DNA of 64,000 nt from an uncultured Flavobacteriaceae bacterium (GTDB lineage Bacteria; Bacteroidota; Bacteroidia; Flavobacteriales; Flavobacteriaceae), in NCBI GenBank assembly GCA_947493175.1, contig CANLQD010000003.1:868001-932000 (forward strand), written 5' to 3'. Positions within the stretch are counted from its first letter, which is position 1. Every line of letters begins with the position of its first letter. Positions 4,883 through 45,292 of this stretch are shown here, in pieces. The notes under the pieces are model-generated. The model was given only the letters and a program-made list of their open reading frames with translations, made no database searches and had not been told where the DNA came from. Position numbers and translations under genes: made by a program.

Positions 4883-4923
4883 GGGAGACCGATTATCACA
4901 TGAATAGACGGTCTCCCTTTTTT
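4883..4923 (+). terminator. Intrinsic terminator after the metzincin gene
   Basis: A 9-bp perfect stem (GGGAGACCG at 4883-4891 pairing with CGGTCTCCC at 4909-4917) is followed by six T residues. The right arm also encodes the last codons of the convergent gene that ends at 4896. Confidence 0.9.
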
Positions 4924-40252: not shown

Positions 40253-40382
40253 TTTTCTTTTAATCGCTTATCGGATGCGCTAGCATTAACAAAACAGGTT
40301 TAAGTACTAAATATTGTCGCATAGGTAAAGTAGTTTCTCCGGTAGGCGGGTAATATTTGAAAAGACTATAAACCACACTAAA

Positions 40383-40400
40383 TTTCAATAATTTTTGAAA
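40383..40400 (+). promoter_or_regulatory. GbsR-type operator copy 1
   Basis: TTTCA and TGAAA arms separated by 8 nt, continuing GTTTAAAAATA. The same arms, spacing and flank recur at 40947-40966, so it is likely the binding site of the adjacent regulator. It covers the putative -33 region. Confidence 0.55.
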
Positions 40401-40423
40401 GTTTAAAAATAATAGTATATTTG
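40394..40423 (+). promoter_or_regulatory. Putative promoter of the GbsR-type gene
   Basis: TTTG at 40394-40397 and TATATTTG at 40416-40423 fit the flavobacterial -33 (TTTG) and -7 (TAnnTTTG) boxes with 18 nt between. The -7 box ends 4 nt before the ATG, so the transcript would be leaderless or nearly so. Confidence 0.5.
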
Positions 40424-40427
40424 TTCT

Positions 40428-40931
40428 ATGGAATATTTAGAAGCCAAAGAAAAGTTCATCAGTACTTGGGGAAGTCTCGGTACCCTTTGGGGAATCAATA
40501 AGGCCATGGCGCAGATACAGGCGTTACTTTTTATATCGACCAAACCGTTGTCAACTGAACAAATTATGGAAGAACTTAAGATTTCGAGAGGTAATACCAG
40601 CATGAATGTGCGACAGCTTATCGACTGGGGAATTGTTACCAAGGAATTGATTCCAGGAGAGCGCAGGGAGTATTTCTCGACCGAAAAAGATGTGCAAGAA
40701 TTGGCTCGTATCATCGCCAAGGAGCGAAGTCGAAGAGAAATTCGACCTGTGATCAAAACCTTGGAGGAAGTAAGTAGCATCAAAGATGACGGAACCGCAG
40801 CGACCAAGGAATTTATTCAACAAACCAAGGCCTTGCACGATTTGGCCGATACAGCGGACAGTATGCTGGGGAAACTCGTCAACCAAAAACAAAATTGGCT
40901 GACCAAGTCTATCCTTAAAATGTTCAAATAA
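40428..40931 (+). CDS. GbsR/MarR-family transcriptional regulator
   Basis: The 167-residue protein opens EYLEAKEKFISTWGSLGTLWGIN, the start signature of GbsR-type regulators, followed by a winged helix-turn-helix (STKPLSTEQIMEELKISRGNTSMNVRQLIDWGIVTKEL, then a wing with EYF). Members act as repressors. Two near-identical inverted repeats flank the gene: one on its own promoter and one before the next gene, so it likely controls itself and the operon. The ligand is unknown. Confidence 0.85.
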   Translation: MEYLEAKEKFISTWGSLGTLWGINKAMAQIQALLFISTKPLSTEQIMEELKISRGNTSMNVRQLIDWGIVTKELIPGERREYFSTEKDVQELARIIAKERSRREIRPVIKTLEEVSSIKDDGTAATKEFIQQTKALHDLADTADSMLGKLVNQKQNWLTKSILKMFK

Positions 40932-40946
40932 AAATTTTAATTATAT

Positions 40947-40966
40947 CTTTCAATATTTTCTGAAAG
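40947..40966 (+). promoter_or_regulatory. GbsR-type operator copy 2
   Basis: CTTTCA-N8-TGAAAG, followed by TTTTAAATATA. The spacing and flanking bases match copy 1 and it lies 17 nt before the start of the next gene, so that gene and its downstream operon may be repressed by the same protein. Confidence 0.55.
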
Positions 40967-40983
40967 TTTTAAATATATATAAA

Positions 40984-41424
40984 ATGAATTATATCGTCCC
41001 ACATTGGCTCATTATCCTAGGCGGTATCGGCCAAATTTTTACAGCGCTTATTTACCCATATATTCGGCATCGAGTGTTTGATTGGTATACCGATGTAAAA
41101 CAGTTAAAACCGTTGAACCAAGAGATTGCGAAAACGTATGGTCGTTACATTCAAGGGTTGAACTTTTCATTTGGTCTCATTGCCCTATTGCTCACCAAAG
41201 ACCTACAAAACGGCACCAGCCTGGCCCTTGCACTCTCTGGCCTGGTCGCTGCCTACTGGATTGGAAAGGTGGCTACTCAAATCGCCTATTATCCCATGTA
41301 CGAAATTCCGAAAGAGCCCATTTTCAAAATCGGCAGTTACTGTATGAACGCTTTGTTTACCCTGTTCGCAGTCGTATATGCCTGGCTCTTTGTAATCAAC
41401 TGCAAGCTTTATTTGAATTTTTAA
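40984..41424 (+). CDS. Four-helix membrane protein
   Basis: The 146-residue product has four predicted transmembrane helices (starting LIILGGIGQIFTALIYP and ending LFTLFAVVYAWLF), with a soluble loop of basic and aromatic residues (KQLKPLNQEIAKTYGRYIQG). No family is assigned. It follows the operator at 40947 and precedes a methyltransferase by 10 nt, so it is the first gene of the regulated operon. Confidence 0.75.
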   Translation: MNYIVPHWLIILGGIGQIFTALIYPYIRHRVFDWYTDVKQLKPLNQEIAKTYGRYIQGLNFSFGLIALLLTKDLQNGTSLALALSGLVAAYWIGKVATQIAYYPMYEIPKEPIFKIGSYCMNALFTLFAVVYAWLFVINCKLYLNF

Positions 41425-41434
41425 GCCCAATTGT

Positions 41435-42322
41435 ATGAAAACGATACCACTTAGCACAACACATTACACATCGGAAAGGGATTCCCAAAACACCCTGAAC
41501 ATCGTTGATTTTTATAACGAAGCAACTGAGGACTATGCGTTCTGGAGCAAAGATTTCAACATGCATTTTGGTTACTTCTCCGGTTCGGGCACTAATATCT
41601 TCAAAAGAGATAGTATGTTGAACGAGATGAACCGCCAAGTACTCAAGCGGTTGGGATTGCCCGTTCAAAAAGCACTTTTGGCCGATCTTGGTTGTGGCAT
41701 GGGCGGCACCATGCGATATGCCCTTAAGGATCATAAGAACCTTGCGGCATTCGGCGTTACATTATCCGAGTTTCAGCAAAAGGAAGGCAATCGACTTCTT
41801 AACAATTTGAAAGGCACCATATTGAAAGAGAACTTCAATGACACCAGCTTTTCTTCCAATATGTTTGACGGAGCTGTCGCCATGGAAAGCTTTTGTCATT
41901 CAGGTCATCATAAAAAAGCTTTCCAGGAAGCCTATCGGATTTTAAAACCCGGAGGTAAACTGGTCATTGCCGACGCATTCCTTAAAAAATCACCTCAAGA
42001 GTTGTGCTATGGCAGCAAGCTATCCTATAAAAAGCTCTGTAATCACTGGAGTTTGGAACAATTGGGAACCATTGATAACGTTAAAGAACAATTGAAAGAA
42101 ATAGGTTTCTTGGAAGTGGTTGTTGAAGATATTTCCTTTCGTGTAGCACCCTCGGTATTGCATGTACCATTCGCCATATGTGGCTTTATGCTCCAAAAGC
42201 TATTGGGCTCCGGTAGCCTAAAAAAAGAAAGCCTGCACAACCTAAAGGGTTCCTTTTACGCACTGTTATCCGGACTACATATGAAAAGCTTTGGGTACTA
42301 CCTCATCACCTGTAAAAAATAA
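41435..42322 (+). CDS. SAM-dependent methyltransferase (class I)
   Basis: The 295-residue protein has the class I motifs LLADLGCGMGGTMRYA (motif I), FDGAVAMESFCH (post-I/II) and AYRILKPGGKLVIAD (motif III). It is similar in layout to sterol or tocopherol-like C/O-methyltransferases of the Methyltransf_11 type. Neighbours are a membrane protein and a TIGR01777 epimerase; a lipid or quinone-like substrate is conceivable but unproven. It is co-transcribed with both genes (gaps 10 and 6 nt). Confidence 0.83.
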   Translation: MKTIPLSTTHYTSERDSQNTLNIVDFYNEATEDYAFWSKDFNMHFGYFSGSGTNIFKRDSMLNEMNRQVLKRLGLPVQKALLADLGCGMGGTMRYALKDHKNLAAFGVTLSEFQQKEGNRLLNNLKGTILKENFNDTSFSSNMFDGAVAMESFCHSGHHKKAFQEAYRILKPGGKLVIADAFLKKSPQELCYGSKLSYKKLCNHWSLEQLGTIDNVKEQLKEIGFLEVVVEDISFRVAPSVLHVPFAICGFMLQKLLGSGSLKKESLHNLKGSFYALLSGLHMKSFGYYLITCKK

Positions 42323-42328
42323 AATTCC

Positions 42329-43234
42329 ATGAAAAAACTTGTCATTGCCGGAGGAACCGGCTTTCTAGGTCGGGCCTGTGTCGATTATTTTAAATCTAAC
42401 TATGACCGAATCGTGGTTTTGACCCGTAACACGCCTTCAACCATCAACAACATCACCTATGCGCAATGGGATGCCAAGACCCTTGGTGAATGGAGCCGGC
42501 ATTTGCATGACTGCCATACCCTTATTAATCTCACGGGACGTTCAGTAGATTGCCGATATACCGAGACCAATAAAAAAGCAATTCTAAACTCTAGAACCGA
42601 TTCGACCTTGGTCTTGGGCAAAGCAGTGGCAAAAGCGAAAATACCACCGAAAATATGGCTTAATTCCTCTACAGCTACCATTTATCGTCACTCATTGGAT
42701 ACTAAAATGGATGAGCATTCCGGCGAAATCGGCACCGGTTTTTCGGTCGATGTAGCGAAAGCTTGGGAGGACACTTTTTTTTCACAGGAAACCCCCTCGA
42801 CCCGAAAAATAGCACTCCGAACCAGTATCGTTTTGGGAAAGAACGGAGGCGCCCTTACCCCCATCAAACATTTGGCAAAAATTGGTTTTGGGGGCAAACA
42901 GGGGCCTGGAAACCAAAAATTCAGTTGGATTCATATAGACGATTTTGTACGCAGCGTCAAATTCATCATTGATAGCCCAAAAATCGAAGGTCCTGTAAAT
43001 CTTGTTGCCCCAAAGCCAACCACCAATGCCCAGCTCATGGAAACGGTTCGAAAGGTAGTGGGGATCCCATTTGGCATTCCGTTGCCAAAACCACTTTTAG
43101 CAATAGGGGCCCGGATTATACAAACAGAGACCGAATTGGTGCTTAAAAGCAGGAACGTGGTACCTTCCAAGCTGATTGAATACGGATTTAAATTTCAATA
43201 TGGGTCGCTACCCGATGCCCTGGAAGCCTCGTAA
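42329..43234 (+). CDS. TIGR01777-family NAD-dependent epimerase/SDR
   Basis: The 301-residue protein has the Rossmann start IAGGTGFLGRACVDYF, the TIGR01777-specific INLTGRSVDCRY and NSRTDSTLVLG segments and a KIALRTSIVLG strand. A Domain-1731-like C-terminus is present (PKPLLAIGA, VVPSKLIEYGFKF). Members are linked to SDR39U1; substrates are unknown. It ends the GbsR operon and its stop abuts the stop of the convergent rhodanese gene. Confidence 0.88.
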   Translation: MKKLVIAGGTGFLGRACVDYFKSNYDRIVVLTRNTPSTINNITYAQWDAKTLGEWSRHLHDCHTLINLTGRSVDCRYTETNKKAILNSRTDSTLVLGKAVAKAKIPPKIWLNSSTATIYRHSLDTKMDEHSGEIGTGFSVDVAKAWEDTFFSQETPSTRKIALRTSIVLGKNGGALTPIKHLAKIGFGGKQGPGNQKFSWIHIDDFVRSVKFIIDSPKIEGPVNLVAPKPTTNAQLMETVRKVVGIPFGIPLPKPLLAIGARIIQTETELVLKSRNVVPSKLIEYGFKFQYGSLPDALEAS

Positions 43235-43597
43235 TTACCCTTGGTCCTTACGTTCCTTGTAAGCCTCATACCCCCCTTCCAAATTCACCACATCTTGATA
43301 TCCCATCGCCTTCAGTTTTTCTTGGGCTTTGGCGCTACGACCTCCCATTTTACAATAGAGATAGATGGTCTTTGTTTTATCGATTGCGTCAAATTGCCGT
43401 GCAAAATCTGCATCGAACCAATTGATGTTCATAGCATTTTCGAGATGGCCTGCCGAAAACTCTTCCGGGGTACGGACATCTACTAAAACAACACTTTCGA
43501 GTTCTTTTTGTGAAACTTCTGTGATAGGTTTTGACGACTTTTGGGAACAAGCGAAATTAGTCAATAAAAAAAGAAGGAATACATACTGTACTTTCAT
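43235..43597 (-). CDS. Rhodanese-like lipoprotein
   Basis: The 120-residue product has a lipoprotein signal ending LTNFAC and a single rhodanese domain with VLVDVRTPEEFSAGHLENAMNIN, the active-site loop IYLYCKMGGRS (Cys nucleophile) and NLEGGYEAYK. It transfers or binds sulfane sulfur in the periplasm. The ATG at 43597 is preferred to the TTG at 43603. Convergent with the epimerase gene. Confidence 0.88.
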   Translation of the reverse strand: MKVQYVFLLFLLTNFACSQKSSKPITEVSQKELESVVLVDVRTPEEFSAGHLENAMNINWFDADFARQFDAIDKTKTIYLYCKMGGRSAKAQEKLKAMGYQDVVNLEGGYEAYKERKDQG

Positions 43598-43644
43598 CAC
43601 CAACGGGTTTTATCCAAAATTAATCATATTCACTAAAATTCCAT

Positions 43645-43670: not shown

Positions 43671-44231
43671 ATGGTGCAGCACGAGCTACATCCCGATAAC
43701 TGGGTCGATAATTATGCCGACTACCTCTTCAATTATGCCGTTGGAAGGGTCAGCGATAGTGAAATTGCCAAAGATTTAGTACAGGAAACTTTTTTTGCGG
43801 GCCTCAACTCGGCCAAAAACTACAAAGGGGATGCTGCGGAGCGTACCTGGCTCATTGCGATTCTAAAAAGAAAAGTAATCGACTACTACCGAAAGATCAA
43901 TTCCAAAAAGGGAAAGGCCGAAGTACGCATGAACTATAGCAATGGTAGCGATTCGGAGGGAGATTGGCTCGAGGAGCAGGTTGCCGACCCGTTTAGCACG
44001 CTCGAAAACGATGCCATCGAAAATGAAGAACTCGGTTCTGCCATTTATGATTGTATCGGAAAATTACCCAAGAAACAAGCCCTGGTATTTAATATGAAAA
44101 CGATACAGGGCATAAGTACCGAAGACATTTGTAAGGAGTTGGGGATTAACCCGTCCAACTTGTGGGTAATGATCCATCGCGCACGAACTGCGTTGATGGG
44201 ATGCCTCAACCAAAATTGGTTCAACATATGA
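43671..44231 (+). CDS. ECF-type RNA polymerase sigma factor
   Basis: The 186-residue protein starts at the ATG at 43671 (longer frames run into the rhodanese gene on the opposite strand). Region 2 reads DYLFNYAVGRVSDSEIAKDLVQETFFAGL, and region 4 has CIGKLPKKQALVFNMKTIQGIS, then STEDICKELGINPSNLWVMIHRARTALM. This is the arrangement of ECF sigma factors that direct transcription of a regulon under a linked anti-sigma factor. It overlaps the next gene by 4 nt (ATGA). Confidence 0.88.
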   Translation: MVQHELHPDNWVDNYADYLFNYAVGRVSDSEIAKDLVQETFFAGLNSAKNYKGDAAERTWLIAILKRKVIDYYRKINSKKGKAEVRMNYSNGSDSEGDWLEEQVADPFSTLENDAIENEELGSAIYDCIGKLPKKQALVFNMKTIQGISTEDICKELGINPSNLWVMIHRARTALMGCLNQNWFNI

Positions 44232-44458
44232 TGATTTCTTGCGAAAAAGCGACCATTCTCTGCAATAAAACCCAATATGGGGAGGCTAGTTTTCTGGAAA
44301 AACTTCAACTTAAGTTTCACCTCTTCATGTGCAAGACCTGTTCTTCCTTCTCCAAAAAGAATACAGAACTCACCTCGCTTTGTCAGAAAGCGAACCTGAA
44401 CGGTCTCTCGACTTCCGAAAAAGAACAAATGAAGACCGCGCTACAGAAAAAGGACTAG
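44228..44458 (+). CDS. Small zinc-binding putative anti-sigma factor
   Basis: The 76-residue product has cysteines at SCEKATILCNK near the start, a central LQLKFHLFMCKTCSSF with the H-x-x-x-C-x-x-C zinc pattern of ZAS/zf-HC2 anti-sigma domains, and no transmembrane helix. Placed directly after and overlapping the ECF sigma gene (ATGATG), it most likely holds that factor inactive, possibly by a redox-sensitive zinc site. Soluble anti-sigma proteins of this size are known for ECF factors. Confidence 0.75.
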   Translation: MMISCEKATILCNKTQYGEASFLEKLQLKFHLFMCKTCSSFSKKNTELTSLCQKANLNGLSTSEKEQMKTALQKKD

Positions 44459-44470
44459 GAGCAACTTTAC

Positions 44471-45292
44471 CTACCAATAAGCCATTCCCAATAAAATGCT
44501 ATACCAAAAAATAGGAATCGCCTCTACCCAGAAAGAAGCAAAATAGCGAGATTGCTTTGTATTGGTGAATAGTAAAGCCATCCCTAACACAAGGCATAGC
44601 AGCGATTTCCCGATCAGCTCCATTTGGGAAACACGGTCTTTTATAAAAGTTAATAGGAACAAAACAACCAATGTAAAAACTGCCAACCATTTCGTTGTTA
44701 CTACTCCATATCGCTGCGGCAATGTCTTTAAGTCGGGAGCATCATAGGTCAAATCCCTTATTTCAAAAGGCACCAATAACACCAGCACCAACAGCAATCG
44801 CTGAACAAACTCTATAGAAACATCCCATGACAACATTTTTCCCACCTCAACAACCGGTAGGAATACCGTCACACCGGCCCAGACCAAGGCCACAAGCACT
44901 ATTTTGAGTCCACCCCAACTCCGTAAATTTTTGGTTCCCGGTAAAACCGGCAATGCATAAAGCCCCGTTAGCGCTAGTAACAATGCAATACCGAACCAAG
45001 TCTCTGTTCTTAGAAAGAATGCGAAATACGTAGCGATTAGGAGACAGCTGATGCTTAAAAATTGAATATTTTTATGATATCTATTGGCTACCTTGATATA
45101 CTTTTCGGCTTCCACTCCGTACTTCACGAAATTATAGCAAGATATCGATGCAAAAAATAGGAAAAAAGCAAGGGGGTCAGGAATAGAAATGTTCAATATA
45201 AGACCAGAACATCCAACAAGTGAAAATACGGCCAAAGCCACGTGTACACTGGCATCTAGATAGAAATCAAAAATACGCCGCAGCCACTTCAT
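44471..45292 (-). CDS. UbiA-like prenyltransferase-family membrane protein
   Basis: The 273-residue protein has eight to nine predicted transmembrane helices. RDLTYDAPDLKTLPQRYG resembles the second UbiA aspartate-rich motif (D-x-x-x-D-x-x-x-x-x-T-L-P-x-x-x-G). The first motif normally contains N-D-x-x-D; here the corresponding YNFVKYGVEAEKY lacks aspartates, so prenyl-transfer activity is doubtful. The gene is convergent to the anti-sigma gene and divergent from gcvP. Confidence 0.72.
   Translation of the reverse strand: MKWLRRIFDFYLDASVHVALAVFSLVGCSGLILNISIPDPLAFFLFFASISCYNFVKYGVEAEKYIKVANRYHKNIQFLSISCLLIATYFAFFLRTETWFGIALLLALTGLYALPVLPGTKNLRSWGGLKIVLVALVWAGVTVFLPVVEVGKMLSWDVSIEFVQRLLLVLVLLVPFEIRDLTYDAPDLKTLPQRYGVVTTKWLAVFTLVVLFLLTFIKDRVSQMELIGKSLLCLVLGMALLFTNTKQSRYFASFWVEAIPIFWYSILLGMAYW

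Follow-up and report, generated by a model that had tools for sequence, protein, structure and literature searches.

Conserved twin inverted repeats as putative operators of a GbsR-type regulator in Flavobacteriaceae and related Bacteroidota

The window analyzed in this study is a stretch of 64,000 nucleotides from the genome of an uncultured Flavobacteriaceae bacterium. On its plus strand, the gene of a GbsR/MarR-type regulator of 167 amino acids (40428..40931) is followed by an operon of three genes on the same strand. The first encodes a membrane protein of 146 amino acids (40984..41424), which has neither a Pfam nor an NCBIfam match and is assigned here to a family called mem18. The second encodes a CMAS-like SAM-dependent methyltransferase of 295 amino acids (41435..42322), recognized by a family match, and the third a TIGR01777-family NAD-dependent oxidoreductase of 301 amino acids with Epimerase and DUF1731 domains (42329..43234; 263.9 bits, cut-off 207.35). 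The gaps between the operon genes are only 10 and 6 bp. A fold search with the 146-aa membrane protein gave no PDB match at E <= 0.001, the rows for TMEM35A, the sigma-2 receptor, and EBP having E values of 0.6-2.3. Beyond the operon, a rhodanese gene on the minus strand (43235-43603) is followed by the gene of an ECF sigma factor (43671-44228) and by a short Cys-rich ORF (the span of the two being 43671-44458), which I take to be ZAS-like. Next to it on the minus strand, a protein of 273 amino acids (44471-45292), read by eye as presumably UbiA-like, has no Pfam match and keeps its place in 22 family loci including the window.

The inverted repeat TTTCA-N8-TGAAA occurs exactly twice in the window, with the same spacing on both sides of the regulator gene, just as the first-pass annotation had described it. 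The core of the upstream copy (O1) lies at 40383-40400 and that of the downstream copy (O2) at 40948-40965, which is 16 bp past the stop codon of the regulator gene and 18 bp ahead of the next ATG. The flanks had been called equal too; this is true of the right side, where TGAAAGTTT is identical in O1 and O2, but not of the left side (AAA versus ATC). The full operator can be written as a putative site of about 26 bp, AAACTTTCA-N8-TGAAAGTTT, which places O1 at 40379..40404 and O2 at 40944..40969 with no strand assigned. The window count of the bare core is not decisive by itself. Shuffled windows contained 0.27 copies on average, and two or more copies were found in 6 of 100 shuffles. In the entire genome of 5.8 Mb, the core occurs 31 times versus 20 times for the reversed control, and this mild over-representation is weak evidence that would also suit chance AT-rich repeats. 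A motif scan of the genome had been proposed in the first-pass annotation, with the reservation that the motif might turn out to be common in random intergenic DNA. The core alone comes near to that, but for the longer site this is not so: CTTTCA-N8-TGAAAGTTT, with up to one mismatch allowed, was located only three times genome-wide, namely at O1, at O2, and inside a coding sequence which I take to encode a peptidyl-prolyl isomerase. Thus, the flanked form is specific and the core, with its 31 copies, is not.

For scoring, 261 sites from other loci served to train a weight matrix, with the window and its nearest relatives (L046 and L173) left out. O1 scored 31.0 bits and O2 30.7 bits, the training median being 31.9 bits. 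Fifteen other cores of the same genome, scored with their flanks by the 26-bp matrix, reached 11.8 bits at most, and the best of them overlaps the end of an ORF. For the other 14 cores, of which only 18 bp were scored, the maximum was 18.5 versus 25.9 and 24.2 for O1 and O2; among the training sites, the 5% point is 19.5 and the minimum 12.9, so that 18.5 falls between the two. With these scores, a large regulon in this genome is without support, and no target was found beyond the regulator-containing operon among the 31 core places. The regulon of the first-pass annotation must be narrowed to this extent. The tie between operator and regulator holds across species, as described below, but in this genome it covers a single operon including the regulator gene, as far as found.

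What kind of regulator is encoded between the two sites? The protein matches MarR_2 of Pfam (37.8 bits, cut-off 27) and has an N-terminal winged helix-turn-helix. An AlphaFold monomer model was made from the window and related-locus sequences (mean pLDDT 83.3); it shows helices and two strands as in a winged helix-turn-helix, with a pLDDT of 93-97 for residues 31-70. When a profile of 47 relatives was used, the nearest solved chain was MJ223 (1KU9), with an E value of 3.7e-25 over profile positions 3-152. Foldseek with the model also gave 1ku9_A as the best match (E 1.1e-9, TM 0.53/0.58, rmsd 6.2), and the likeness includes the C-terminal helical domain. MJ223 is the template that was used for GbsR (PMC6207618). 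Since MJ223 is thus the best match both by sequence and by predicted fold, the regulator can be assigned to the GbsR type of the MarR superfamily, which agrees with the first-pass annotation. The palindromic site suggests that it acts as a homodimer.

The best NCBIfam match of the regulator is the choline regulator CudC (NF047500), with 46.3 bits against a cut-off of 218, so that the protein does not qualify as that equivalog; it is the only CudC-family match in its genome. The GbsR of Bacillus subtilis has an aromatic cage of six Phe residues near the linker (PMC6207618). The regulator has five Phe residues in its translation, none of them in the linker (residues 88-107). Therefore, a six-Phe cage within one regulator chain would not be possible, as judged from the translation rather than from a residue-by-residue alignment with GbsR. 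Betaine synthesis or Opu genes, which adjoin the regulators of the osmostress GbsR/CudC subgroup, are not adjacent here, where the operon comprises genes for a membrane protein, a methyltransferase, and a TIGR01777 oxidoreductase. Because there are five Phe residues and none in the linker, as against a cage of six, the label GbsR-type should not be taken to imply osmotic or choline control, at least as the sequence reads.

How far does the arrangement extend? Of 120 family genomes, 37 contain a homolog of the regulator, which is strong in 26 (including the window); at E <= 1e-15, a homolog was detected in 128 of 395 class genomes. The comparison covered 146 loci: the window together with 25 loci of the family search, 40 class loci picked by hand from the 128 genomes (about one or two per family, with four from the window's own family), and 80 loci of named genomes, which are the best 80 of at least 583, mostly Flavobacteriaceae by title and biased to close relatives. 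The loci were selected by regulator similarity, the start codons were chosen by a script, and the ORF labels are coarse. No two regulator genes of the 146 loci are identical in DNA. The core lies within 130 bp upstream of the regulator gene in 138 of the 146 loci, and 129 have it no more than 150 bp downstream. A contig end accounts for one of the eight loci lacking the upstream core (L065). Of the spacers from 4 to 13 that were compared, only 8 recurs, while those of 4-7 and 9-13 are each present in at most one locus. When the bases of the same stretches were shuffled, the core appeared on average in 0 loci upstream and in 0.15 downstream. Such positional conservation, with one place and one spacer in 138 of 146 loci, refutes the reading as chance AT-rich repeats, which I regard as practically negligible in spite of the modest excess of the bare core. 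In the class set, the core is present upstream in 33 of 40 loci, and downstream in 24 within 150 bp and in 30 within 700 bp. In the named set (best 80 of at least 583), it is present upstream in all 80 and downstream in 79. When sorted by identity to the window protein, the upstream core was found in none of three loci below 40%, 6 of 7 at 40-45%, 19 of 22 at 45-50%, and 113 of 114 above 50%, the single miss in the last group being, by elimination, the contig end. It is this conservation across related loci that decides the matter, and the original observation as a whole is confirmed by it. Since the twin-site arrangement recurs in many related bacteria, it is very likely to be a real switch of a repressor and neighboring membrane/lipid-type genes.

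A few loci deviate from the common layout. In one locus (L052), a third operator-like core (4893-4910) separates the first cargo gene from the gene after it, as if the site had been duplicated with an inserted gene. Two loci have distant homologs of about 150 amino acids; one of them (L073) has no core, and the core of the other (L072) is about 4 kb away. The sizes of the genes following these two homologs suggest what I take to be an RND-type efflux system. In a plasmid search, 178 records had GbsR-type homologs, with identities below 60%.

It is conceivable that the sites belong to a different regulator which merely shares the locus, and six of the 94 family genomes with no strong homolog do have a strict 22-bp site, one each. 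However, 21 of the 26 family genomes with a strong homolog have strict 22-bp sites, and 30 of the 31 places in these genomes are at the regulator. Similarly, a strict 24-bp palindrome is present in 42 of 128 class genomes with a homolog versus 3 of 267 with none (Fisher 8e-20); two of these three are listed as 81% and 59% complete. Counted from positions, 40 of the 55 places of the 24-bp palindrome adjoin a regulator gene. In 18 stretches from other classes of the phylum, the four highest-scoring homologs (L280, L289, L290, and L291) have the site at -34 to -45, while the remaining 14, mostly a longer paralog, have no good upstream copy. A core at -65 in L287, with a GC-richer spacer, is probably there by chance, and the cores of L279 and L288 are further upstream. 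The longer GbsR-type paralog (about 190-200 amino acids; L281-L284, L286, and L292) has no operator, and the start of the gene that follows it is presumably of the yraN type. As the site accompanies the closest homologs and not the more distant paralogs, a different regulator is very improbable. Judging from this distribution, O1 and O2 are very probably the operators of the regulator encoded between them.

The sigma-A promoters of Bacteroidota have the consensus TTTG/TAnnTTTG (PMC6847099). A predicted promoter of this kind, P1 (TTTG-N18-TATATTTG; 40394..40423, plus strand), precedes the regulator gene. Its TTTG (40394-40397) is inside the first repeat and TATATTTG (40416-40423) comes 18 nt later, so that the upstream repeat does lie at the regulator's own -33 region, as had been claimed. 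TAnnTTTG is found 13-18 nt past the core in 126 of the 138 O1 loci, and a TTG inside the repeat, 17-23 nt before TAnnTTTG, in 107 of them. The -7 G is 3-5 nt from the script-chosen start codon in 102 of the 127 loci with TAnnTTTG, and in the window 4 nt lie between this G and the ATG. Many transcripts of Flavobacterium johnsoniae start 4-5 nt after the -7 box (PMC6847099). For these two reasons, the regulator mRNA would be leaderless or nearly so, a prediction that depends on the script-chosen start codons. This conserved feature would be unusual, because leaderless transcripts made up only 5.5% of the mRNAs examined in F. psychrophilum (PMC9723704).

The second repeat had been described as preceding the operon. 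Its position is correct, but it has no recognizable sigma-A promoter and may block read-through instead of controlling a second promoter. In the stretch that starts 60 bp ahead of the stop codon of the regulator gene and ends at the following ATG, TTG-N17-23-TAnnTTTG, which represents the sigma-A consensus only, was found in none of the 129 O2 loci, and TAnnTTTG was found in only one. At the final spacer position, directly ahead of TGAAA, 33 of 56 O2 sites have C and 50 of 58 O1 sites have T, as if O1, not O2, must supply the TTG of the -33 element. Since O2 has no such promoter, either the operon would be read through from P1 with elongation blocked at O2, or another sigma factor would act at O2. 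In the latter case O2 would cover an independent promoter, for example of the ECF sigma factor mentioned above, and two promoters would be repressed. Of 66 loci, 22 have an ECF sigma gene behind the operon, and all of these belong to the 26 family loci; in the named set, at least 47 of the 80 loci have it there. The sequence from the stop codon to O2 also includes an AT-rich block that is conserved in part, and flavobacteria have promoter classes besides sigma-A (PMC9723704). On the other hand, no ECF sigma gene was detected in the stretch examined of the class loci, 30 of which have O2 within 700 bp, and the distance from the O2 core to the first ATG is only 16-20 nt in 96 of 129 loci. A second sigma factor is thus unlikely but deserves to be kept in mind.

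Two further readings concern the nature of O2. A 32-nt stretch of O2 is able to fold into a 6-bp hairpin (-4.1 kcal/mol, z -2.57) followed by TTTT, and might be an attenuator or terminator in the RNA rather than a protein site. This fits badly because O1, which has nearly the same sequence, precedes the predicted start and would not be part of the RNA; moreover, the z-score of the hairpin with flanks is -0.94, and a terminator scan found nothing at O2. I find a hairpin hardly credible. It may also be imagined that the dimers at O1 and O2 interact and loop out the regulator gene, given that the O1-O2 distance is 562-573 bp in at least 79 of 128 loci. However, this distance largely follows from the fixed gene length, the 46 distinct distances show no clear 10.5-bp phasing (R 0.15), and the nearest downstream core of six class loci is 286-439 bp past the stop codon. 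Looping is distinctly improbable.

What lies behind O2? The cargo differs between species, even within one genus (the window versus L046), but appears to come from one recurring set: a CMAS-like methyltransferase, the TIGR01777 oxidoreductase, small membrane proteins, and DUF2071, DCC1-like, and DoxX-like proteins. The families were assigned by phmmer at E <= 1e-4, and the counts for the 80 named loci are lower bounds, with genes taken up to the first large opposite ORF, a sigma gene, or 5.5 kb. There were at least 44 TIGR01777-like genes, 38 CMAS-like methyltransferase genes, 33 of mem11a, 34 of mem11b, 31 of mem18, 28 SRPBCC-like genes, 17 and 3 DUF2071-like genes (at least, with two queries), 12 DCC1-like genes, 4 desaturase genes, and 3 DoxX-like genes. 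The labels SRPBCC-like and, for the homologs, CMAS-like are my own assumption. Representatives have Pfam support as DoxX_3, DUF2071, DCC1-like, FA_desaturase, and methyltransferase; those of mem11a, mem11b, and the SRPBCC-like family had no match above the Pfam cut-off, including none for the SRPBCC domain. A further family of small membrane proteins (a single-linkage cluster of 68, median 112 amino acids) is often the first behind O2. When 66 loci were compared, O2 (within 700 bp) was accompanied by a recognized gene of the set in 53, three have only O2, one has only a gene of the set, and nine have neither; the presence of O2 thus seems to go with that of the gene set.

Strict sites away from the regulator were also inspected. 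Of the 16 such sites (L296-L311; all 15 class sites of the 24-bp form and one family site of the 22-bp form), three are beside a mem11a-mem11b pair: L302, which has two cores, L303, and L307, where the start of the called ORF overlaps the site. The other 13 have no recognized set gene adjoining. It is likely, because of these three, that the operator sometimes accompanies genes of the set elsewhere, while most stray strict sites lie outside this pattern. L296, L309, and L310, three genomes of one genus with one off-locus site each, might represent a conserved extra target.

The sequences compared here show the sites and how they are conserved, the link with the regulator and with the gene set, and the overlap of O1 with a consensus promoter, and the following mechanism is proposed on this basis. 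A dimer of the regulator would bind the 26-bp site. On O1, it would cover the -33 element of the regulator's own sigma-A promoter and shut off the leaderless mRNA, which would amount to simple autorepression by promoter occlusion. O2 would be in the transcribed gap between the regulator gene and the first operon gene, where no separate sigma-A promoter was found. The most likely source of operon transcription is read-through from P1, and a dimer bound at O2 may be a second gate, a roadblock that would keep cargo expression below regulator expression until a ligand releases the protein. The target would be one operon whose genes are drawn from a recurring but exchangeable membrane/lipid-type set. 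I hold the reading as a whole, an O1-occluded autorepressor with an O2 roadblock gating read-through into one operon, to be probable; the roadblock step is put forward with modest confidence. Counted against the reading are the restriction of the promoter search at O2 to the sigma-A consensus, the lower figures of the wider class set, the 13 off-locus sites lacking a set gene, the three O2-only class loci and the one set-only locus, and the six family genomes that have one strict 22-bp site each and no strong homolog.

Precedents for both placements are GbsR and OpcR of B. subtilis, which belong to the same family by sequence and, through MJ223/1KU9 as the nearest solved chain, by predicted fold. 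Both have AT-rich inverted-repeat operators; OpcR covers the -35 region, and GbsR is a roadblock downstream of the transcription start (PMC7396694). Unlike in that pair, both placements serve one regulator at one locus here. The core spacer is 8 bp versus 4 bp for B. subtilis GbsR, the six-Phe cage is missing, and the cargo does not consist of choline/betaine genes. GbsR proteins of the CydE type (cydAB of Alishewanella) are described as likewise lacking the aromatic cage and having an adjoining target, with sulfate reported as the inducer (PMC6207618), but no oxidase genes were recognized at the window locus. The same source states of the GbsR-type members of Bacteroidetes that "no consistent picture emerges" from their neighborhoods (PMC6207618). 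The window regulator probably belongs with those proteins, to which it is likened by description and not by sequence; in contrast to that account, the present comparison defines a common operator and a gene set that recurs. In one open-access library, no such gene set was described in the titles and abstract starts of the matches, and nothing matched "TIGR01777 + Bacteroidetes + operon" or COG1090/COG3361/COG3011/COG1510. The light-induced LitR clusters of Pseudomonas have the furan-fatty-acid gene ufaM and a dehydrogenase gene near the regulator (PMC9758184). LitR is of another regulator family, and a link of the gene set to light response is a lead only.

Tentatively, it is possible that the system is a widespread and mostly single-target switch of Bacteroidota, in which a leaderless autorepressor and a promoterless O2 gate form a fixed cassette with swappable genes behind it, and that it serves an undescribed kind of membrane adaptation. 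The members examined appear to share one operator, one architecture, and one recurring gene set, in which several genes are of unassigned function. With a precise DNA site, a reporter-ready promoter, and a candidate pathway, the ligand and the function would be directly testable. If O2 is a promoterless roadblock, the arrangement would be a compact natural way to separate the levels of the regulator and its cargo from one promoter.
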